DNA from: Thioalkalivibrio sulfidiphilus HL-EbGr7
GTDB taxonomy: Bacteria > Pseudomonadota > Gammaproteobacteria > Ectothiorhodospirales > Ectothiorhodospiraceae
Length of the DNA: 64,000 nt
Reading direction: 5' to 3'
NCBI RefSeq assembly: GCF_000021985.1
Contig: NC_011901.1
Location: 1,674,001 to 1,738,000, forward strand
This document shows, in pieces, positions 7,335 to 17,882 of the stretch. The notes beneath the pieces were generated by a model. That model saw only the letters and a list, made by a program, of their open reading frames with translations, did no database searches and had not been told where the DNA came from. Every line of letters begins with the position of its first letter. Position 1 is the stretch's first letter. The position numbers and the translations under genes are program-made.

Positions 7335-10300
7335 TCATCCAGCCGCGGACACCTCGTTTGAGGAACGGCCCGAGAGCCGATCCGCCAGGCGTTCATGGAC
7401 CGCCAGCAGGGCGGGGATGACCACCAGCACCAGCACCGTGGCCACGCCCAGGCCGAACACGATGGACACCGCCATGGGGATCAGGAACTGGGCCTGCACG
7501 GAACGCTCGAACAGCAGCGGGATGAGACCGGCGATGGTGGTGAAGGAGGTGAGCACCACGGCGCGCAGGCGCTGGCAGGAGGCCTCCACGATGGCCAGCT
7601 CCCGATCCATGCCTTCCTCGCGCAGGGACTGGTAGAAGCTCACCAGGATGATGGAGTTGTTGACCACGATGCCGGTGAGTCCGAACAGACCGAACAGGGA
7701 CAGGATGGTCAGCTCCAGGCCCATGAGCCAGTGGCCCACCAGGGCCCCCAGCAGGCCGAAGGGGATGATGGCCATGACCACCAGGGGCCAGCCGTAGGAG
7801 CCGAACACCCAGGCCAGCACCAGGTAGATCATGGCGAGCGCGAAGATCAGGCCCATGCGCATGTCGCCCAGGGTCTCGGCCTGGTCGGCGGCGCGGCCCT
7901 CGAAGGAATAGGTGACGCCATGGCGCTGGGCAAGATCCGGCAGCACATCGGCGGCCAGCTGCTCGCGGATGCGTGCCGCATTGTTCTGGGTGCGATCCAC
8001 CTCCGAGGAGACCGACACCGCCAGGCGGCCATCCGCGTGGCGCAGGGTCTCGAAGCCCTGCCGGGGCAACAGCTCCGCCACGGTGTCGAGCGGCGCGATG
8101 CCGCCGCCGGGCAGGACCACGGCGAAACGCTCCAGCATGGCCGTGCGATGGCGCTCCGCGTCGGGCAGCACCACGCGCACCTCGATCTCCTCCAGGCCCT
8201 CCTGGTAGATCTGGGCCAGGCGCCCGTCGAAGGCGGCGCGCAGTTGCCGACCGAGGGATTCCGTGGTGAGCCCCAGGGCCAGGCCCTCGGGGCGCAACCG
8301 GTAGATGAGCTGTTCCCGGCCGAAGGGCATGTCGTCCTCCACCGCGAACACGCCCGGGTAGTCGTTCATGGCCTCGGTGAGTTCCAGGGCCGCCTGTTTG
8401 AGCCGGTCCGGATCGGCGCCGGTGAGGCGCACGTCCACGTCCCGTCCCGGCGGGCCGGCCTGACGCTCAGTGATGCTGAACAGTTCGATGCCGGCGGGCA
8501 ACCGAACCCGTTCCTGCCAGGCGCGGATCAGTTCCGTGTTGCGCACCTCCCGCCGGTCAGGAGAGACCAGCTCCACCAGGATGGAGCCGAACTGGTCGCC
8601 GCTGGGGGCCTGGGCGGCGCCGCCCTGTTCCACGCCGCTACCCAGGCGCACCACCACGTTGCGGATCAGTCCGCCACCCAGGGCCTCTTCGGCCTCGAAC
8701 AGCGCCTCCTCCACGTGCTCGATGAAGGCCTCGACCCGCTGTGGCGGCGTGCCCGCCACGAAGTTGGCGGCGGCGTTGACCACCGTGCCCTCCGGGTTGG
8801 GGAAGAAGGTGAAGCCGATGCGCCCGCCGGCCATCAGGCCGAAGGCCAGGATCAACACCGCCACCGCGCCCGAGAGGGTGATGCCCGAGTGGGCCGTGGC
8901 CCACTGGACCATGCGGCGGAAGCTGTGTTCGCGGAAATGCTCGAAGCGCGCGTCGAAGCGGGCCCGGAAGGAACCCTCCCGGGGTGGCCTGATCTTCTCC
9001 ATGCTGTTCTTCAGGTGCGCCGGCAGGATCAGGAAGCTGATCACCAGGGTTGCCAGGATGACGCACACCACCACCAGGGGGATGTCGAACAGGATGTTGC
9101 CGATGATGCCGCCGATGAGCATGAGCGGCAGGAAGGCGGCCACGGTGGTGAGCGAGGCGGAGATCACCGGTGCCAGCATGCGCTTGGCGCCCCGTTCCGC
9201 CGCCTGGGTGGGCGTCATGCCACGCTGGTACTGGGTGTAGGCGTGCTCGCTCACCACGATGGCGTTGTCCACGATGATGCCCAGCGACATGATGAAACCG
9301 AACAGGGAGATCATGTTGATGCTGCCGCCCAGCAGCCACAGCACCAGGAAGGCGGTGGTGAAGGCCACCGGGATACCGATCGCCACGCGTAGGGCGAGCC
9401 GCCCGTTGAGGAACAGGAACAGGATGGCGAGCACCAGCACCAGACCGCCGATGCCGTTCTTCAGCAGCAGCATGATGCGCTCGTAGATCAGCTCCCAGAA
9501 CTGGTCGTAGAGATGCAGCTCAACACCCGGCGGGAGGGTGGGGGTGACCTCTGCGATCCAGTCCATGAGGATCGCGGAGGATTTCAGGGCATCGGCGGTC
9601 TCGGTGCGCTGCAGCTGCATCTCCACCGCCGGTTCGCCCCGATAGTGCACGGACACCTGGTTGTCCCGGGGACGGCGCTCGATGTGCGCCACGTCGCCCA
9701 GGCGGATCAGCCCGCCCTCGGCGTCGGAGCGCAGCGGAAGCCGGGCGAAGGCCAGCTCGTCCCGGCGCTGCTCCAGGCTCCGGATCTGCCGGGCGGTGTC
9801 GTCCCGGCCCACCATGCCGGCGGGCAGGTCCCGGGAGATGCCCGCCACCCTATCGCCGATCTGGTCCAGGCTCATGCCCAGTTCCAGGCTGCGGGCCATG
9901 GGCACCTGGATGGCCATCTCCTCCTCGGGCAAGCCCTTGAAGTCGATGCGCGCGATGCCCCGGTCCAATAGCTGCTGCTCGAAGTCCCGCACCAGGGGGC
10001 GCAGTTCGCGCATGTCCGCGGGTCCGGTGATGAGCATGCGCGCCACGGGCTCGTAGCGGATCACCCGGGTGACCACCGGTTCCTCGGCGGCCTCGGGCAG
10101 GTTGCGCTGCTGGGAGACGATGTCCTTCACCTGGTCCGAGGCCAGGGACATGTCCGTGCCCGACTGGAATTCCAGGGTGATGGAGCCCACGCCCAGGGCG
10201 GCGGTGGAGGTCATGTTGCGCAGCCCGTCCACGGTGCGCAGCTCCTGCTCCAGGGGCGTGATGATGCCGGTCTCCACGTCCTCGGCGCTGGCGCCGGTCC

Positions 10301-10466
10301 AGACCACCCGCACGGTGACGAAATCCAGGGCGAAGTTGGGGAAGAACTGGGTGTTGAGCTTGATCAGCGCCCAGCTGCCCGAGAGCACCATCAGGGCCAC
10401 CAGCAGGTTGGCGGCCACCCGGTGACACAGGAACAGGCGGATCAGGCCGCGATTTCTAGCTGGCAT
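7335..10466 (-). CDS. RND-family efflux pump permease
   Basis: This 1043-residue inner-membrane proton-driven transporter has the AcrB-like plan: a transmembrane segment near residue 20, a large periplasmic loop, a bundle of hydrophobic helices at about 335-540, a second periplasmic loop, and a final bundle at about 855-1020. The transmembrane-4 segment reads SLGIIVDNAIVVSEHAY. It has a single aspartate where drug-type pumps often have two, so the substrate class is uncertain. The final bundle shows LFGLFGLTGIVVNNSIILV. The adaptor gene lies just upstream on the same strand (10602-11849). No outer-membrane channel is encoded with the pair, so a shared TolC-like protein is implied. Confidence 0.9.
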   Translation of the reverse strand: MPARNRGLIRLFLCHRVAANLLVALMVLSGSWALIKLNTQFFPNFALDFVTVRVVWTGASAEDVETGIITPLEQELRTVDGLRNMTSTAALGVGSITLEFQSGTDMSLASDQVKDIVSQQRNLPEAAEEPVVTRVIRYEPVARMLITGPADMRELRPLVRDFEQQLLDRGIARIDFKGLPEEEMAIQVPMARSLELGMSLDQIGDRVAGISRDLPAGMVGRDDTARQIRSLEQRRDELAFARLPLRSDAEGGLIRLGDVAHIERRPRDNQVSVHYRGEPAVEMQLQRTETADALKSSAILMDWIAEVTPTLPPGVELHLYDQFWELIYERIMLLLKNGIGGLVLVLAILFLFLNGRLALRVAIGIPVAFTTAFLVLWLLGGSINMISLFGFIMSLGIIVDNAIVVSEHAYTQYQRGMTPTQAAERGAKRMLAPVISASLTTVAAFLPLMLIGGIIGNILFDIPLVVVCVILATLVISFLILPAHLKNSMEKIRPPREGSFRARFDARFEHFREHSFRRMVQWATAHSGITLSGAVAVLILAFGLMAGGRIGFTFFPNPEGTVVNAAANFVAGTPPQRVEAFIEHVEEALFEAEEALGGGLIRNVVVRLGSGVEQGGAAQAPSGDQFGSILVELVSPDRREVRNTELIRAWQERVRLPAGIELFSITERQAGPPGRDVDVRLTGADPDRLKQAALELTEAMNDYPGVFAVEDDMPFGREQLIYRLRPEGLALGLTTESLGRQLRAAFDGRLAQIYQEGLEEIEVRVVLPDAERHRTAMLERFAVVLPGGGIAPLDTVAELLPRQGFETLRHADGRLAVSVSSEVDRTQNNAARIREQLAADVLPDLAQRHGVTYSFEGRAADQAETLGDMRMGLIFALAMIYLVLAWVFGSYGWPLVVMAIIPFGLLGALVGHWLMGLELTILSLFGLFGLTGIVVNNSIILVSFYQSLREEGMDRELAIVEASCQRLRAVVLTSFTTIAGLIPLLFERSVQAQFLIPMAVSIVFGLGVATVLVLVVIPALLAVHERLADRLSGRSSNEVSAAG

Positions 10467-10508
10467 TGCTCAGTACCTTCTTGCCGTCGACGGGGTTCGG
10501 GGCACACG

Positions 10509-10583
10509 GTAGGAGCGGTGACCCTGCCGCGAACGCGCGGCCAGGATCAACGCCGGCTTTCGGTCCGAGGTCGGGCCTCCTGC
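10509..10583. repeat. GTAGGAG-type REP pair between RND adaptor and permease
   Basis: GTAGGAGCGGTGACCCTGCC begins at 10509 and matches the unit at 6152-6177 read in the other direction. At 10551-10583 the sequence matches the unit at 6189-6218 in reverse, ending GAGGTCGGGCCTCCTGC. The two units stand in the same relative arrangement as in the first cluster, which indicates a conserved two-part element. Confidence 0.75.
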
Positions 10584-10601
10584 ATGGGGTGCCAGGCATC
10601 C

Positions 10602-11849
10602 TCAGTCCCAGTCCGTCTCGACCCGCAGGCCGTCCAATGCATTGGGCAGACGGGTGGTCACCAGCCGGTCGCCGTCACGGATCTCCGGGCTGTACACCAG
10701 CACCCGTTCTCGACCGTTGTCATCGAGCCACTCGCCGCGCCGCTCGACGGTGATGGCGCGCATGCGGCCTTCCTCGATCCGGTAGACCCGGTCGATGCCG
10801 TACAGGGCCTCGAAGGGCAGGGCGACCACATCTGCCGCTTCCGGCAGACGCAGATGCACGGTCAGGAAACGCCCCAGCGGTGCGTGTTCGCCGCCCTCCG
10901 TGATGCGGAACAGGCCTTCCACGCCGGCACCGGTGGCAGGCGCCTCGCCGGCCAGGCGGCTCAGTTCCAGCACCACGTGTTCGCCGTCGATCTCGCCCCG
11001 GGCCGACAGGGGCTCACCGGCATCCAGGCCGCGGCGCACCACCGGCAGATACAGGGCGGGGATGCGGGCGCGAACCTCCAGGGCATCGGCATCGAACAGG
11101 GTCGCCAGCGGATCGCCGATGCGCACCCGGTCACCGGGGGCGACGGCCAGTCGGGACACGCGGCCGGCGAAGGGTGCGCGCACGCGGGTGCGTTCCAGGT
11201 CCAGGCGCGCATCCTCCAGCAGCGCCTCGGCGCGCCGGGCACGGGCCTCCAGCTGGGCCAGCCGGGCCTGGAAATCCTCCAGCGCCAGGCGCCTGGCGTT
11301 GACCGCGAGCGCCTGCTGCTCGTGGGCACGCCGCGCCTCGTCCAGGGCGCTCTGGCTGCCCAGCTTGCGGGCGAACAGGTCCTGGGCCCGTTCCACGTTG
11401 CGCCAGGCGATCTCCAGCAGGGCCTCGTCGTGCTTGAGCGCCTCCCGGTCCCGGGCGTTGCGCAGGCGCTCGGCACTGATCTGGGCGCGGATGTCCGCCA
11501 CGTCCGCCTCCCGCTGGGTCACCAGCAGGCCGATCTCCCGATCGTCCAGGCGCACCAGCACCTGGCCGGCCTCGACCCTGCGACCTTCCTCGCCGGGCGT
11601 CTCCAGCACGTCCGCCTCCACCGCGGCGCGCAGGTTAGCGGTGCGGGGCGTGGTCACGTGGCCGTAGAGGCTCAGGCTGGGCGCCAGGGTGGCGGGCGTG
11701 ACCGTCTCGGTGTTGACCCGCCAGACCCGCTCGCCCACCGCCATGGGCGGGCTCTCGGGCGCCGTGGCACGCAGGATCAGAAAGCCGATCACGCCTGCCG
11801 CCAGGATGAGCAGGGGCAGGATGCGGCGGACAAGGGGGGAGAGGGACAT
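10602..11849 (-). CDS. RND efflux periplasmic adaptor (membrane fusion) protein
   Basis: This 415-residue membrane fusion protein links an inner-membrane RND pump to an outer-membrane channel. A membrane anchor lies near residues 10-27 (RILPLLILAAGVIGFLI). A lipoyl half-motif follows, with VEAGQVLVRLDDREIG near 95-110. A long Arg/Ala/Glu-rich helical hairpin spans about 110-220. The second lipoyl half contains VRAPFAGRVSRLAVAPGDRV near 223-243, and a beta-barrel and membrane-proximal domain end the protein. It is transcribed toward the permease gene 135 bases downstream, across a REP pair. Confidence 0.88.
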   Translation of the reverse strand: MSLSPLVRRILPLLILAAGVIGFLILRATAPESPPMAVGERVWRVNTETVTPATLAPSLSLYGHVTTPRTANLRAAVEADVLETPGEEGRRVEAGQVLVRLDDREIGLLVTQREADVADIRAQISAERLRNARDREALKHDEALLEIAWRNVERAQDLFARKLGSQSALDEARRAHEQQALAVNARRLALEDFQARLAQLEARARRAEALLEDARLDLERTRVRAPFAGRVSRLAVAPGDRVRIGDPLATLFDADALEVRARIPALYLPVVRRGLDAGEPLSARGEIDGEHVVLELSRLAGEAPATGAGVEGLFRITEGGEHAPLGRFLTVHLRLPEAADVVALPFEALYGIDRVYRIEEGRMRAITVERRGEWLDDNGRERVLVYSPEIRDGDRLVTTRLPNALDGLRVETDWD

Positions 11850-11945
11850 GAGGAAATCGCTTCCTTGGGACGTGGACGCCTGGGGATTATCGCAGCTTAG
11901 GAGGCCCCGGTGCTTGTTTCAGTGACGGTGTCACGGAGGAAGCGC

Positions 11946-12027
11946 AGAGACAAGATACAAGATGCAAGAGACAAGTGGAAAAAGGCCTTGGTTCTTGCTT
12001 GTCTCTTGTATCTTTCCTCTTGTCTCT
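11946..12027. repeat. Inverted repeat of CTTGTATCTTG words
   Basis: AGAGACAAGATACAAGATGC at about 11946-11965 is matched by the complementary pyrimidine-rich arm CTTGTCTCTTGTATC and CTTGTCTCT, ending near 12027. It lies between the RND adaptor gene and the end of modC. The same words occur at 5452-5475. No gene is seen here. Confidence 0.7.
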
Positions 12028-12033
12028 AGTGCT

Positions 12034-13104
12034 CTATTCCACAAGTGCCACGGCCTTGATCAATGCATGCACCTGCATCCCCGGCATCAGACCCAGACTG
12101 CGCAGGGAACGCCTCGAGATGCGCGCCAGCAAGGGCTGACCACAGACGTCCAGGCCCAGCAGGACCTCGCCGGGGCGGGTCTCTTCATGGATCTCCCGAA
12201 CCGTGGCGGGCAGGCAGTTGAGCACGCTGATGCCTGCGGGCGGGGTCAGGGCGATGCTCACGTCACGGGCGTGGATACTCAGGCGCACCTGCCTGCCCAC
12301 CGGCAGGTCCTCCCTGAGCAGGGTCAGGCGCGCGCCGTTGATGCCCAGGATGGAGACGTGATCCTCATCGTCGTGATCCAGCACCTCGGCCTCCAGCAGG
12401 GCCACCGCCTCCTCGGCACGGGCCAGCGGCAGGTCGCCCCGGGTGGTCATCTCCCGGATCGGCCCTTCCGCGCGCAGGCGTCCCCCCTCCAGCAGCAGCA
12501 TGTGGTCCGCGAGCCGCATCACCTCGTCGATGGAATGGCTCACATAAAGCACGGGGATGGAGAGTTCGTCGTGCAGCCGCTCCAGGTAGGGCAGGATCTC
12601 CGTCTTGCTGATGGCATCCAGGGCCGCCAGGGGTTCGTCCATGAGCAACACCCGGGGGCTGGTGAGCAGGGCACGGCCCATGGCCACCCGCTGGCGCTGA
12701 CCGCCGGACAGTTCACCGGGGCGACGCGCCAGGAGCGCTTCCAGGCCCAGCAGATCGATCACCTCATCGGGCTGCACCACCCGCTGCCCGGCGGATATGC
12801 GCCGGTAACCGTATTCCAGATTGCCCTGCACGGACAGGTGCGGGAACAGGCGTCCCTCCTGGAACACGTAGCCCACCGGGCGATTGTGGGCGGGCAGAAA
12901 ATGCCGAGCGTCCTGCCAGGTCTCGCCATCCACCACCAGGCGTCCGCGGGCCGAGGGCTCGAGTCCGGCGATACAGCGCAGCAGGGTGGTCTTGCCGCAA
13001 CCGGAGCGGCCGAACAGGGCAGTGACGCCACGCACGGGGATGCGGCTTTCCACGTCCAGGTGGAAGTCCGGTCGCTTGAGGTCGAAGTGCAGGTCGATGC
13101 TCAT
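12034..13104 (-). CDS. modC: Molybdate ABC transporter ATP-binding protein
   Basis: ModC is the ATPase that powers molybdate (and tungstate) import with ModB and ModA. The 356-residue protein has Walker A FGRSGCGKTT near residue 31-40, the signature LSGGQRQRVAMGRAL near 135, Walker B VLLMDEPLAALD near 155, and a switch histidine in YVSHSIDEVMRLAD. After residue 285 comes a Mop/TOBE domain, the oxyanion-sensing extension typical of ModC. It is the last gene of the minus-strand operon modE-modA-modB-modC, with 7 bases separating it from modB. Confidence 0.96.
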   Translation of the reverse strand: MSIDLHFDLKRPDFHLDVESRIPVRGVTALFGRSGCGKTTLLRCIAGLEPSARGRLVVDGETWQDARHFLPAHNRPVGYVFQEGRLFPHLSVQGNLEYGYRRISAGQRVVQPDEVIDLLGLEALLARRPGELSGGQRQRVAMGRALLTSPRVLLMDEPLAALDAISKTEILPYLERLHDELSIPVLYVSHSIDEVMRLADHMLLLEGGRLRAEGPIREMTTRGDLPLARAEEAVALLEAEVLDHDDEDHVSILGINGARLTLLREDLPVGRQVRLSIHARDVSIALTPPAGISVLNCLPATVREIHEETRPGEVLLGLDVCGQPLLARISRRSLRSLGLMPGMQVHALIKAVALVE

Positions 13105-13111
13105 GGACGCC

Positions 13112-13792
13112 TCATGCGCTGGTCAGCCTGAAGCGCCCGTTGATGGCGTAGAGCGCGAACAGCATCAGGAAGGACAGGCCCAGCAGCAGGGCCGAGAGCA
13201 CGTGGGCGGAGGCGTAGTCCACCGCCTCCACGTGATCGTAGATGGCAATGGAGACCACCTGGGTCTCGCCGGGGATGTTGCCGCCGATCATGAGCACCAC
13301 GCCGAACTCCCCCACGGTGTGGGCGAAACCCAGGGTGGTGGCGGTGAGAAAGCCGCGCAGCGACAGGGGAATGACCACGGTGAAGAATCGGTCCCAGGGC
13401 CCGGCGCGCAGGGCGGCGGCGGCCTCCAGCGTCGCATCGCCCACGGCCACGAAGGCGTTCTGCAACGGCTGCACCACGAAAGGCAGGGAGTAGAACACCG
13501 AGCCGATCACCAGGCCGGTGAAGGTGAAGGCGAAGGCGGGTCCGCCCATGGCCTGGATGGGGCCCTGGGCACCCAGCAGCAGGAGCAGGTAGAAGCCCAG
13601 CACCGTGGGCGGCAGCACCAGGGGCAGGGCAACCACGGTCTCGATCACCAGTTTGCCGCGCCAGCGGGTGCGGGCCAGCCACCAGGCCAGGGGCGTGCCC
13701 AGGACCAGAAGCACCAGGGTGGTGATGGCCGCGAGTTTGAGGGTCAGCCACAGGGCTGCGGTGTCCTGGGGACTGATCAGTGTATCCAGCAT
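13112..13792 (-). CDS. modB: Molybdate ABC transporter permease
   Basis: ModB forms the membrane channel of the molybdate importer. The 226-residue protein has about five hydrophobic segments. It carries the ABC-permease EAA loop as EAAAALRAGPWDRFFTVVIPLSLRGFL near residues 125-150, where ModC docks. Conserved features include LVIETVVALPLVLPPTVLGFYLL and FAHTVGEFGVVLMIGGNIPGET near 160-180. It sits between modA and modC and is followed by modC after 7 bases. Assignment rests on family motifs and gene order, both clear. Confidence 0.96.
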   Translation of the reverse strand: MLDTLISPQDTAALWLTLKLAAITTLVLLVLGTPLAWWLARTRWRGKLVIETVVALPLVLPPTVLGFYLLLLLGAQGPIQAMGGPAFAFTFTGLVIGSVFYSLPFVVQPLQNAFVAVGDATLEAAAALRAGPWDRFFTVVIPLSLRGFLTATTLGFAHTVGEFGVVLMIGGNIPGETQVVSIAIYDHVEAVDYASAHVLSALLLGLSFLMLFALYAINGRFRLTSA

Positions 13793-13847
13793 GCTGTTTT
13801 ATGGTTGTGCTTGTGAGCGTGGATGATCGGCGGCGAGGAACCGGTGC

Positions 13848-14606
13848 TTAATGCGTGGGCATACGATACCCATCCGCCTCGATGATTGCTCGTGCCGCAG
13901 GGTCCAGCCTGACCCAGTCCAAGAAGGTCTGCGCCGCATGGGGATCCTGTGCGCTAGACAACCGCACCACTTCCTGAATGATCGGCGCGTAGATGGATGC
14001 ATCCGGGAGCCAGCGCGAGCCCGGTGGATGGCTTCGCTCATGGGTGATCACCTGGGAGAGGGCCACGAAGCCCACTTGCGCATTGCCCGTGGTGATGAAA
14101 TTGAAGGTCTGGCCGATGCTCTGTCCCGTGACCAGGCGACCCCGGCCTGGACTGACCTGGTAATGGGTGAGCACGGATTCTGCCGCCGCGCCATAGGGCG
14201 CGACCCGGGGATTGGCCATGGCGAGGCGCCTGTATCCGTCTCCCTTCAGAAAGGCCACTCCGTCCGCCGGGATCAGGTCCGGGTCAGGACTCCAGAGCAC
14301 CAGGATCCCGTCCGCATAGGCATGTCGGCTGTCTGCCACTGCGTGACCGCTGCCGACCAGGTCTGCGGTGCGCTGGTCATCGGCGGAGAAGAACAGATCG
14401 AAGGGCGCACCCTGCACGATCTGGGCGTAGTGCTTTCCGGACGAGCCACTGATGATGGCCAGGCGCACATCAGACTGCTGAGCGTAGGCCTGCGCCAGGC
14501 GCTCCAGGGTGGCCGTGAAGTTGGCAGCCACGGCAACACGCAATTCGGTGGCCGCCGCGGGGAGGTGCAGCAGCGCCAGGCACAGTATGAAGATCAGACG
14601 TTTCAT
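13848..14606 (-). CDS. modA: Periplasmic molybdate-binding protein
   Basis: ModA captures molybdate or tungstate in the periplasm and delivers it to ModBC. Starting at the ATG at 14606 gives a 252-residue protein with a clean signal peptide, MKRLIFILCLALLHLPAAA. A GTG at 14630 is in frame but lacks a ribosome-binding site, while AGGAAA precedes 14606. After the signal come LRVAVAANFTATLERLA and the oxyanion-binding SGSSGKHYAQIVQGAPFDLFFSAD, with serines that bind the ion in this family. The late segment VGFVALSQV is also typical. It lies between modE and modB in the minus-strand operon. Confidence 0.95.
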   Translation of the reverse strand: MKRLIFILCLALLHLPAAATELRVAVAANFTATLERLAQAYAQQSDVRLAIISGSSGKHYAQIVQGAPFDLFFSADDQRTADLVGSGHAVADSRHAYADGILVLWSPDPDLIPADGVAFLKGDGYRRLAMANPRVAPYGAAAESVLTHYQVSPGRGRLVTGQSIGQTFNFITTGNAQVGFVALSQVITHERSHPPGSRWLPDASIYAPIIQEVVRLSSAQDPHAAQTFLDWVRLDPAARAIIEADGYRMPTH

Positions 14607-14641: not shown

Positions 14642-15439
14642 TCACTCACCCACGGCGAGCATGATGTGCGGTGCCTTGATCAGCGCGCAGACACGGCTGC
14701 CGGTGGCCAGCCAGGGCACAGCCAGGGATTCGCTGGTGACCATGGCGGTGAGCACGCGGCCCTCGCCGATGCGCAGCTTCACCTCAGCGTTGACCGCGCC
14801 GTCATGGGTCTCGATCACGGTGCCGCACAGGCGGTTGCGGGCCGTGCATTTCAGCGCCGGATTGTCCTCGGCCAGGATCACACTGGAGGCGTCGAACAGC
14901 ACCTGGACCTCGCCGCCCCGTACAAGCCCCAGGTCGCTGACCGCCTCGTGGGGGACGATGGCTACCACCTCCTGACCGCCACCGATGTCCACGCACACCT
15001 GGTCGTTGACGGCGCCGGCACGAATCGCCGTGATACGCCCGTGGAAATGGTTGGCTGCGGTGGTGCGCATGGACATCTTCCTCATGAATCCGACCACGTC
15101 CCCCAGGTCGGAGAGACGGTCTTCCAGTTGTGCCATGAAACGCCGATAGGCCTCGTCGGCGGCCCGGTAGTGGTCGATGACCCGCTGGCCGAATTCGGTG
15201 ATATCGGTGCCGCCACCACGCCTTCCGCCGGCCTTGCGGGTGACCAGGGGGCGGTCGGCCAGGTTGTTCATGGCCTCCACCGCGTCCCAGGCGGCCTTGT
15301 AGCTCATGCCCATGGAACGGGCGGCGGCGGAGATGGAGCCGGTCTGGCCGATGCGCTCCAGCAGTTCGATCCGCCCGGCACCCAGGAAGCCTTTTTCGCT
15401 GACGTTGAACCAGAAACGTCCATCCACATGGGCCTTCAT
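14642..15439 (-). CDS. modE: Molybdate-responsive transcription regulator ModE
   Basis: ModE represses molybdate uptake genes when molybdate is bound and can activate molybdoenzyme genes. The 265-residue protein has an N-terminal winged helix-turn-helix (residues about 20-110): GAGRIELLERIGQTGSISAAARSMGMSYKAAWDAVEAMNN, then LVTRKAGGRRGGGTDITEFG. Two Mop/TOBE modules follow, at about 125-190 (SMRTTAANHFHGRITAI) and 200-262. The start at 15439 is preceded by AGGAG. It is the first gene of the mod operon. A perfect ModE-type operator at 15487-15510 lies 48 bases upstream of its start codon, which implies autoregulation. Confidence 0.96.
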   Translation of the reverse strand: MKAHVDGRFWFNVSEKGFLGAGRIELLERIGQTGSISAAARSMGMSYKAAWDAVEAMNNLADRPLVTRKAGGRRGGGTDITEFGQRVIDHYRAADEAYRRFMAQLEDRLSDLGDVVGFMRKMSMRTTAANHFHGRITAIRAGAVNDQVCVDIGGGQEVVAIVPHEAVSDLGLVRGGEVQVLFDASSVILAEDNPALKCTARNRLCGTVIETHDGAVNAEVKLRIGEGRVLTAMVTSESLAVPWLATGSRVCALIKAPHIMLAVGE

Positions 15440-15486
15440 GCCAGCTTCTCCTGAAAATCTGCACTGTCAGTCAACGCATCAAGAAG

Positions 15487-15510
15487 CGTTATATTTTTCT
15501 TTATATAACG
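15487..15510 (-). promoter_or_regulatory. ModE operator upstream of modE-modABC
   Basis: The sequence CGTTATAT, eight spacer bases, then ATATAACG is a perfect inverted repeat. It has the same half-sites and spacing as the ModE box of enteric mod operators (established knowledge). On the minus strand a TTGACA hexamer at 15515-15520 adjoins it, and A+T-rich candidate -10 sequence lies within it. Bound ModE would therefore cover the modE promoter. The divergent flavoprotein gene at 15671 might also be affected. Confidence 0.88.
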
Positions 15511-15670
15511 ATGCTGTCAAGCCACCCTCGGCGGGAAGACGGTATAGATGATGGGCTGAGTCCACCCCTTATTCCCGGCGTACCGGAATATCGGGGGCGG
15601 GGCTTTGATTTCCCAAGCCATGGGCGTCCAATGGTATGACCCGCCAACTCGATTCACTGGGAGGACAGAC

Positions 15671-16255
15671 ATGACCAGCCACATCCTGATCATCCAGGGC
15701 CATCCCGATGCCGCAGGGAATCATTATGGTCATGCACTGGCGCAGGCCTACCGGGAAGGCGCACTCGAGGGTGGTCACCCGGTGGAGATCCTGACCGTGG
15801 CGGAGCTGGATTTTCCGATCCTGCGCACCCAGGCCGAGTGGAATCGGGGCGAGCTGACGCCGGACATCCAGAAGGCCCAGGCGGCCATCACCCGGGCGGA
15901 TCACCTGGTGCTCATCTATCCCCTGTGGCTCGGTTCCATGCCGGCGCTCCTCAAGGGCTTCCTGGAACAGACCCTGCGTCCCGGCTTTGCAGTCGGCCAT
16001 CAGGACAAGTCCGGCCTCTACGCCAAGCAACTCAAGGGCAAGAGCGCCCGCATCGTGGTAACCATGGGCATGCCCGCGTTCATCTACCGCTGGTTCTTTC
16101 GTGCCCACAGCCTCAAGAGCCTGGAGCGCAACATCCTGAAGTTTTGCGGCATCAGGCCCATCCGGGAGAGCCTGATCGGCATGGTGGAGGGCAGCGCCGC
16201 GCATCGGGAGAAGTGGCTTGCGAAGATGCGTAAGCTGGGGCGGTCGGGGTTGTGA
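15671..16255 (+). CDS. NAD(P)H-dependent quinone/flavin oxidoreductase (flavodoxin fold)
   Basis: The 194-residue protein belongs to the NAD(P)H dehydrogenase (quinone) family, like KefF, MdaB and NQO1. It begins MTSHILIIQGHPDAAGNHYG, the FMN phosphate-binding loop, after a GGGAGGA ribosome-binding site. The segment DHLVLIYPLWLGSMPALLKGFLEQTLRPGFA near residues 78-108 is the flavin-binding and dimer motif of this family. The late GTPY-type loop is replaced by TMGMPAFIYRWFF. The substrate is unknown. It is divergent from modE and shares its upstream region, so molybdate control is possible but unproven. Confidence 0.85.
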   Translation: MTSHILIIQGHPDAAGNHYGHALAQAYREGALEGGHPVEILTVAELDFPILRTQAEWNRGELTPDIQKAQAAITRADHLVLIYPLWLGSMPALLKGFLEQTLRPGFAVGHQDKSGLYAKQLKGKSARIVVTMGMPAFIYRWFFRAHSLKSLERNILKFCGIRPIRESLIGMVEGSAAHREKWLAKMRKLGRSGL

Positions 16256-16275
16256 TGGTCAAGGGCGTTTTTTTT

Positions 16276-16448
16276 GCCACAGCGGGCACAGAGGTCACAG
16301 TGATAAAGACGATTGGAAATGTCATGGTCGTAGGTCGGGCTTTAGCCCGACGCCGGGGGCTGGATTGGCCAGCGCCGCTGTCGGGCTGAAGCCCGACCTA
16401 CGGATCCACCGGTGTTTTTAACTCTGTGACCTCTGGGCCCTCTGTGGC
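16276..16448. repeat. Nested repeat: REP pair inside a CACAGAG inverted repeat
   Basis: An outer inverted repeat has arms 16276-16300 (GCCACAGCGGGCACAGAGG at its start) and 16424-16448, which match over 25 bases with about two mismatches. Between them, at 16330-16401, are two facing units. The first starts GTAGGTCGGGCTTTAGCCCG and the second ends GGGCTGAAGCCCGACCTAC. Similar unit pairs lie at 51555-51626 and 56746-56850. The arrangement suggests one element landed within another. It separates the flavoprotein gene from dacB. Confidence 0.8.
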
Positions 16449-16459
16449 TAAATAAGACC

Positions 16460-17882
16460 ATGCTCCGCCAGATCCTGCCCCTCATCCTGCTACTGCTCGC
16501 CGGTCTGAACACTGCCAGCGCCCAGAACCTGCTGCCGGCACAGGTCAACCGCGTCATCCAGGCCCATGGCATGGACCCGGCCAGAGTCGCCATCTGGGTA
16601 CAGCCCGTGAATGCCGATAAGCCCTGGCTGGCCCACAACCCGGACACCGCCCTCAACCCCGCCTCGGTGATCAAGCTGGCCACCAGCCTGGCGGCCCTGG
16701 AGGTGCTCGGTCCGGCCTACACCTGGAAGACCCGGGTGCACCTGGGGGGACCGGTGGAGCAGGGGGTGCTCAAGGGGGACCTGTGGCTCATCGGCGGCGG
16801 CGACCCCTTCCTGGTCACCGAGGAATTCTGGAAGCTGCTCGGGGCGCTGCGCCGCCAGGGCATCCGGCGCATCGAGGGGGACCTGGTCTTCGACCTGTCC
16901 TACTTCCGCTTGCCCGATGAGGAGCCGGCCGCCTTCGACGGACAGCCCCACCGGGTCTACAACCAGGGGCCGCACCCGCTGCTGGTGAACTTCAACGCCC
17001 TGCACGTGGAGGTGATGCCGGATCCGGACGGCGACGCGGTGAGCGCCGTGGTGGACCCGCCCATCGCGGGACTGCACATCGACAACCGCCTGCGCCAGCG
17101 TGCCGGACCCTGCGGCGGGTATCGCCTGGGGATCAGCTACCGGGTGCTGGAGGAGCGGACCGGCATCGGCCTGGACGGACGCTTCCCGGGCAGTTGCGGA
17201 CCCCACCGATTCGCCCGCACGGCACTCACGCCCGAGGCCTACGTACACGGGTTGTTCAGGAGTCTCTGGGCCCAGTGGGGCGGGGAGTTCGAGGGCGGCT
17301 GGCGGGTGGATACCTGGAGCGATGTCGAACGCGAACCCACCCTGGTGCATGAATCCCGGCCCCTGGGCGAACTCATCCGGCTGGCCAACAAGCACAGCAA
17401 CAACGTCATGACCCGGCACTTCGAGCTGACCCTGGGCGCCGAGACCTTCGGCATGCCGGCCACCCCGGAGAAGGGCCTGAACGCCATCCTGGACTACCTG
17501 GCCGCCCGGGGCATCGACAGCAAGGGCCTGGTCCTGGACAACGCCGCCGGCCTGTCGCGTCACAACCGCGTCACCGCCCGGCAACTGGCAGGCATCCTGC
17601 GTGCCGGGCGGCAGAGCCCCCTTCATGCCGGAATTCATCTCCTCTCTGGCCCTGGCCGGTCTGGACGGCACCCTGCGCAGCCGCTTCGAGGACGATCCTG
17701 CCGCAGGGCGCATGCACCTCAAAACCGGTTTCCTGGAAGGGGTGTCCAGCATCGCCGGCTACGTGAAGACCGCCACCGGCGAGGACGTGATGGTGGTGGT
17801 GATGGCCAACGGCCCGGGCGTGCAGTGGAGCACGGGCATTGAACTTCAGGATGCGGTGCTGCGCTGGGTGTTTGAGCGCTAG
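16460..17882 (+). pseudogene. dacB: D-alanyl-D-alanine carboxypeptidase/endopeptidase PBP4, frameshifted
   Basis: DacB trims peptidoglycan stem peptides in the periplasm. A signal peptide (MLRQILPLILLLLAGLNTASA) opens the gene. The active-site SxxK is SVIK near residue 69, and the SxN motif is SNN near residue 313. After about residue 385 the reading frame turns to low-quality Arg/Gly-rich sequence. The correct ending, with the KTG box in HLKTGFLEGVSSIAGYV, lies in the next frame (17622-17882). The switch falls at a run of five C at 17617-17621. Removing one C restores RQSPFMPEF and a complete protein of about 473 residues. It is either a recent frameshift mutation or a sequencing error. Confidence 0.88.

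Follow-up and report, generated by a model that had tools for sequence, protein, structure and literature searches.

A putative ModE operator at the predicted promoter of the modE-modABC genes in Thioalkalivibrio sulfidiphilus HL-EbGr7

Analysis of a 64-kb stretch of the Thioalkalivibrio sulfidiphilus HL-EbGr7 chromosome (hereafter the window) found a perfect inverted repeat, CGTTATAT-TTTTCTTT-ATATAACG, at 15487-15510, which, judged from its letters, position and conservation, is with a probability of roughly 0.88 the operator at which ModE acts on its own operon and through which modE-modABC would be autoregulated in a molybdate-dependent manner. The operator is very probably of the ordinary E. 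coli type, a kind already known, and the locus would offer a clean case of putative ModE autoregulation in haloalkaliphilic sulfur oxidisers. The features on which the analysis relies are listed below.

15487..15510, no strand: putative ModE operator, perfect palindrome CGTTATAT-N8-ATATAACG (genome scan; genus and family conservation)
15515..15520, minus strand: TTGACA, presumed −35 element of the modE promoter, 4 bp ahead of the operator (promoter scan; genus conservation)
15493..15498, minus strand: AAAAAT, possible weak −10 element after a 16-bp spacer, within the operator (promoter scan; inference)
14642..15439, minus strand: modE, putative molybdate-responsive regulator of 265 aa with a winged HTH and two Mop/TOBE domains (profiles; 1b9m)
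13848..14606, minus strand: modA, molybdate-binding protein (TIGR01256, 154.5 bits, cut-off 62.5; ATG at 14606)
13112..13792, minus strand: modB, permease (TIGR02141, 230.9 bits, cut-off 182.6)
12034..13104, minus strand: modC, ATPase (TIGR02142, 446.5 bits, cut-off 285.05)
15671..16255, plus strand: divergent NAD(P)H-dependent-type flavoprotein (Flavodoxin_2) of 194 aa (profiles; a neighbour, unsupported as target)
About 8079-8112 of locus L137, in genus relative G004: probable decayed ModE operator after TTGACA

The palindrome consists of two 8-bp half-sites around 8 bp, with 0 mismatches (letters CGTTATATTTTTCTTTATATAACG), and was indeed as flawless as an earlier note on this DNA had described it. 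It was the only match at ≤3 mismatches in the window, where shuffled windows averaged 0.01 matches, and also the sole one in the whole genome (3,464,554 bases, one contig), in which the search for further ModE sites at N8 spacing with up to 3 mismatches found no second place for the strict pattern. Two genome matches at ≤3 mismatches were obtained with a reversed control pattern; since the control also matches at that tolerance, a 3-mismatch match alone is meaningless, and the weight lies on the zero mismatches, for which approximately 2.5e-5 perfect matches per genome are expected at the window base composition. The earlier claim of a classic ModE spacing agrees with the E. coli-type consensus as quoted in a passage of PMC545781, ATCGNTATATA-N6-TATATANCGAT: the 28-mer at the window site has 2 mismatches in the 20 specified positions, and the core CGNTATAT-N8-ATATANCG, taken as the mark of an E. 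coli-type operator, is present with 0 mismatches. When this looser core was searched genome-wide, 19 places were found versus 16 for the control, and as the other 18 all carry 3 mismatches, they stand at chance level.

The position of the palindrome also bore out the earlier note, which had it adjoining a minus-strand TTGACA, included in the note's interval of 15487-15520, and lying in the gap that separates modE-modABC from a divergently oriented flavoprotein gene. The operator is placed at the predicted promoter of the molybdate transport genes, 4 bp past TTGACA and 47 bp before the modE ATG, within a shared intergenic gap of 231 bp in which 160 bp separate the operator end from the flavoprotein ATG. 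In the promoter scan, TTGACA paired with AAAAAT matched in 10 of 12 letters; TTGACA is conserved in the relatives, and the −10 element is not evidently so. The modE-modABC genes are tightly packed, with the modA ATG 35 bp after modE, and would be co-transcribed; a search of the modE-modA junction revealed neither a promoter-like nor a terminator-like site. Nor was a promoter or terminator found at the junction of modC with the following RND adaptor gene, where a longer operon is thus neither proven nor excluded.

The encoded regulator is a ModE homologue lying outside the narrow NF007957 family, the NCBI equivalog of E. coli-type ModE, to which it scored 154.2 bits, under the cut-off of 369. 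Its N-terminal winged HTH exceeded the cut-off of TIGR00637 (101.7 versus 98.5 bits), two C-terminal Mop/TOBE domains were recognized (TIGR00638, 117.1 bits in 2 stretches; TOBE, 2 stretches), and it aligned with E. coli ModE (1b9m) over residues 12-262 (E 1.3e-31). It is called ModE here by its domains and locus, with molybdate sensing as a putative function. Among the named genomes, its closest relative is the ModE of T. denitrificans ALJD (86%), and a passage of PMC3072093 gives T. denitrificans as the closest described species to ‘Thioalkalivibrio sulfidophilus’ HL-EbGr7.

Comparison within the genus and family supports the claim of the earlier note that a ModE operator lies over the modE promoter and would serve autoregulation. 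In the genus sample of five genomes (G000-G004), modE was found in four, and the perfect palindrome together with TTGACA-N4-CGTTATAT is present in all four; the other matches in G001 and G003 have 3 mismatches, which is the control level. Likewise, the site occurs at ≤3 mismatches in all 17 family loci, the window included, whose modE is full-length, and it begins 42-71 bp ahead of the predicted modE start; this count omits the partial G019 match and matches covering only about residues 15-130. Site and modE are thus conserved together, and across both the genus and the family the half-sites and their spacing are conserved while the spacer letters vary. Outside the family the site is often missing: of 36 modE loci in the named collection, 12 have it and 24 lack it, absence meaning at least 4 mismatches at N8 spacing. 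Among the 24 loci, 18 have another modABC order, one (L053) has the same order, and five have no modABC match; two of the 12 loci with a site (L065 and L068) have modABC oriented divergently from modE, with the site in the gap between the two. Two loci, L059 and L062, show a 3-mismatch match at N10 spacing and were left out of the count. In the class-wide collection, the site was present in 14 of 25 modE loci and absent in 11. The loci L086 and L087 show 4 and 8 mismatches, respectively. No two of the ModE proteins used are identical, and other overlap between the collections was retained.

A natural comparison is provided by G004, the genus member in which the modE search gave no match; its stretch, L137, is the one that the analysis covered among the six stretches L137-L142. 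Its genome keeps a block that matches window 7707-14558 at 91.5% DNA identity and comprises most of the RND gene, the adaptor, modC, modB and most of modA, after which come the flavoprotein (83% protein identity) and dacB (94%), arranged as in the window. Within the 217 bp that separate the aligned blocks lies TTGACA-N4-CGTGACAA-N8-AGATGCCG, which has 6 mismatches in 16 letters and is the best match in this gap at spacings 7-9; 0.3% of 20,000 shuffles equalled it at the fixed position, in a test designed after inspection of the alignment. The single match at ≤3 mismatches in G004 is located on another contig and has 3. We read the remnant as an operator that decayed after loss of its regulator, similar to the vestigial ModE sites that part of PMC2700814 reports for Geobacter metallireducens after ModE loss. 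The likeness to Geobacter ends at the number of sites, since the same source predicts several in G. sulfurreducens versus one clear site here.

The transporter genes behind modE have had a separate history. Protein identities between the window and G001-G003 are 84-85% for modE, 79-81% for the RND adaptor and 87-91% for the RND pump; for modA, modB and modC they are 29-31%, 53-54% and 46-47%, respectively. Conversely, two family loci, L082 (G042) and L083 (G038), resemble the window by 65-69% in modA, 82-83% in modB and 66% in modC, with 56% in modE, and G004 shares the window-type modABC. These identities indicate that the transporter genes (12034-14606) were exchanged in place, with modE and the operator ahead of them conserved; the exchange took place in one of two lines, that of G000 and G004 or that of G001-G003.

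According to the proposed mechanism, plentiful cytoplasmic molybdate would be bound by ModE, whose dimer would occupy 15487-15510 and block RNA polymerase at the leftward TTGACA promoter, turning down modE-modA-modB-modC; upon molybdate shortage, ModE would come off the site and uptake would be switched on. Repression is proposed as the direction because of the site position and the precedent of Rhodobacter capsulatus, in which, according to passages of PMC6925177, mopA-modABC is repressed by MopA or MopB with molybdate. One sentence of PMC2408646 has E. coli ModE upregulating modABCD, and the title of a paper cited there names ModE as the repressor of modABCD; because of this title, repression was kept over the upregulation sentence. 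Counting against autoregulation are the weak −10 element, a first Mop domain (Mop1) devoid of the usual Arg and Lys, the NF007957 score below its cut-off, and the frequent lack of the site outside the family.

Compared with known systems, the window site resembles the E. coli-type operator in its half-site letters, N8 core spacing, regulator family and molybdate transporter target, and differs in gene arrangement. The transporter cluster of the window opens with modE, so that one site can serve both the regulator and the transporter; E. coli has modE and modABC at separate places. The arrangement in R. capsulatus is alike in that a ModE-like regulator gene heads the mopA-modABC operon, described in passages of PMC6925177 as repressed with molybdate at Mo-boxes; these passages also describe two redundant regulators and the further targets anfA and morAB, in contrast to the window genome with its single ModE match and single clear site. 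For Tv. jannaschii exposed to arsenite, passages of PMC6620896 report upregulation of a molybdate ABC transporter together with soeABC and are silent on the regulator ModE, and part of PMC3589368 deals with an E. coli ModE-based sensor.

The regulator itself shows an unusual sensor. Arg and Lys contact molybdate in the E. coli ModE structures. In an alignment of 81 ModE proteins, including those of E. coli and the window, the four genus members (window 14642-15439 and L070-L072) have Ala 129 and Asp 183 at these positions of Mop1, where the other proteins have Arg in 77 of 77 and Lys in 76 of 77; the Arg and Lys of Mop1, a possible hallmark of ModE family members, are therefore lacking in the window ModE. 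The second domain, Mop2, keeps Arg 201 and Lys 255 in all four, versus Asp and Asn in E. coli Mop2. The genus arrangement is thus the reverse of that in E. coli, with the pair kept in Mop2 and gone from Mop1, and molybdate sensing by Mop2 is predicted on this basis. We give about even odds to the fuller picture for the Thioalkalivibrio clade, namely an ordinary operator, a ModE that reads molybdate with Mop2, and one clear operator in the window genome. The replacement of Arg and Lys in Mop1 in all four members could also mean that the operator is genuine and that its ModE has ceased to respond to molybdate or responds to a different oxyanion; this is very unlikely, as the pair is retained in Mop2 and modE still stands ahead of modABC in each of the four. 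Among the ModE papers listed, no title or abstract opening dealt with this locus or with reversed Mop domains. Through the reversal, one could study how DNA binding depends on where in the sensor molybdate sits.

The earlier note had further suggested that ModE might control the divergent flavoprotein gene, a proposal that the comparison leaves unsupported. Control of both divergent units from one site, with ModE repressing or activating the flavoprotein and molybdate thereby tuning a flavin-dependent reductase, would fit the shared gap and the 160-bp distance given above, as well as the statement in a passage of PMC2408646 that ModE can activate in E. coli (moa). Nevertheless, the perfect site occurs in G001, G002 and G003, in each of which modE stands divergent to dacB and the stretch examined contains no flavoprotein gene, and G004 keeps both flavoprotein-dacB and modABC with the site reduced to its 6-mismatch vestige. 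Among 55 modE loci, with an upstream reach that varies by locus, the flavoprotein adjoins modE in the window only. A search for flavoprotein homologues in 46 genomes returned 28 matches, spread over 20 of them; one per genome was read (20, window included) and 8 weaker second copies were left out. For the 19 homologues outside the window (25-83% identity), no site in the 500 bp upstream came below 6 mismatches. Six mismatches were reached by the G004 vestige and by two distant homologues, L133 and L136, and since the latter also do so, a 6-mismatch match means little without a fixed position. As a further, weak piece of evidence, 15400-15700 gave no sigma-70-like promoter on the plus strand in the promoter scan. 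The gene neighbourhood and the missing homologue sites indicate that site and flavoprotein occur independently and leave the flavoprotein unsupported as a conserved ModE target; dual control is hence very unlikely, and the gene is most probably a bystander.

That the palindrome is an RNA element, such as a Moco riboswitch or a terminator, or arose by chance is exceedingly improbable. A terminator-like call on the plus strand (15473-15490) does overlap it, one such call having been found versus 0.3 expected in shuffles (sd 0.7); against this stand the conserved half-sites and spacing around a variable spacer, the very low chance expectation, and an Rfam search in which two tRNAs were the window's only matches at gathering score, by which a Moco riboswitch or other RNA family was rejected.

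Several minor observations were made at the loci compared. In G026 (L077), further ModE sites (9400-9423, 9618-9641 and 11851-11874) flank a TonB-dependent receptor gene (9697-11787), in the gap towards modC and just past the receptor gene, which makes the receptor a candidate for outer-membrane uptake under ModE; G018 has ModE sites at a spacing similar to that in G026. The letters CGTTATATTTCAGTTTGCATATCG are common to six genomes (G009, G011, G017, G021, G025 and G028). In many family members, L023-L031 among them, the ModE match spans only about residues 15-130. Finally, dacB, which follows the flavoprotein on the plus strand of the window (16460-17882), shows an apparent frameshift near residues 384-390 with its C-terminal part in another frame, its open frames being 495-498 aa in four genus relatives; around dacB in the genus, imperfect repeats like cacagaggtcacagag and ctctgtgacctctgtggct were seen at 16256-16455 and in the intergenic gaps of L070-L072.
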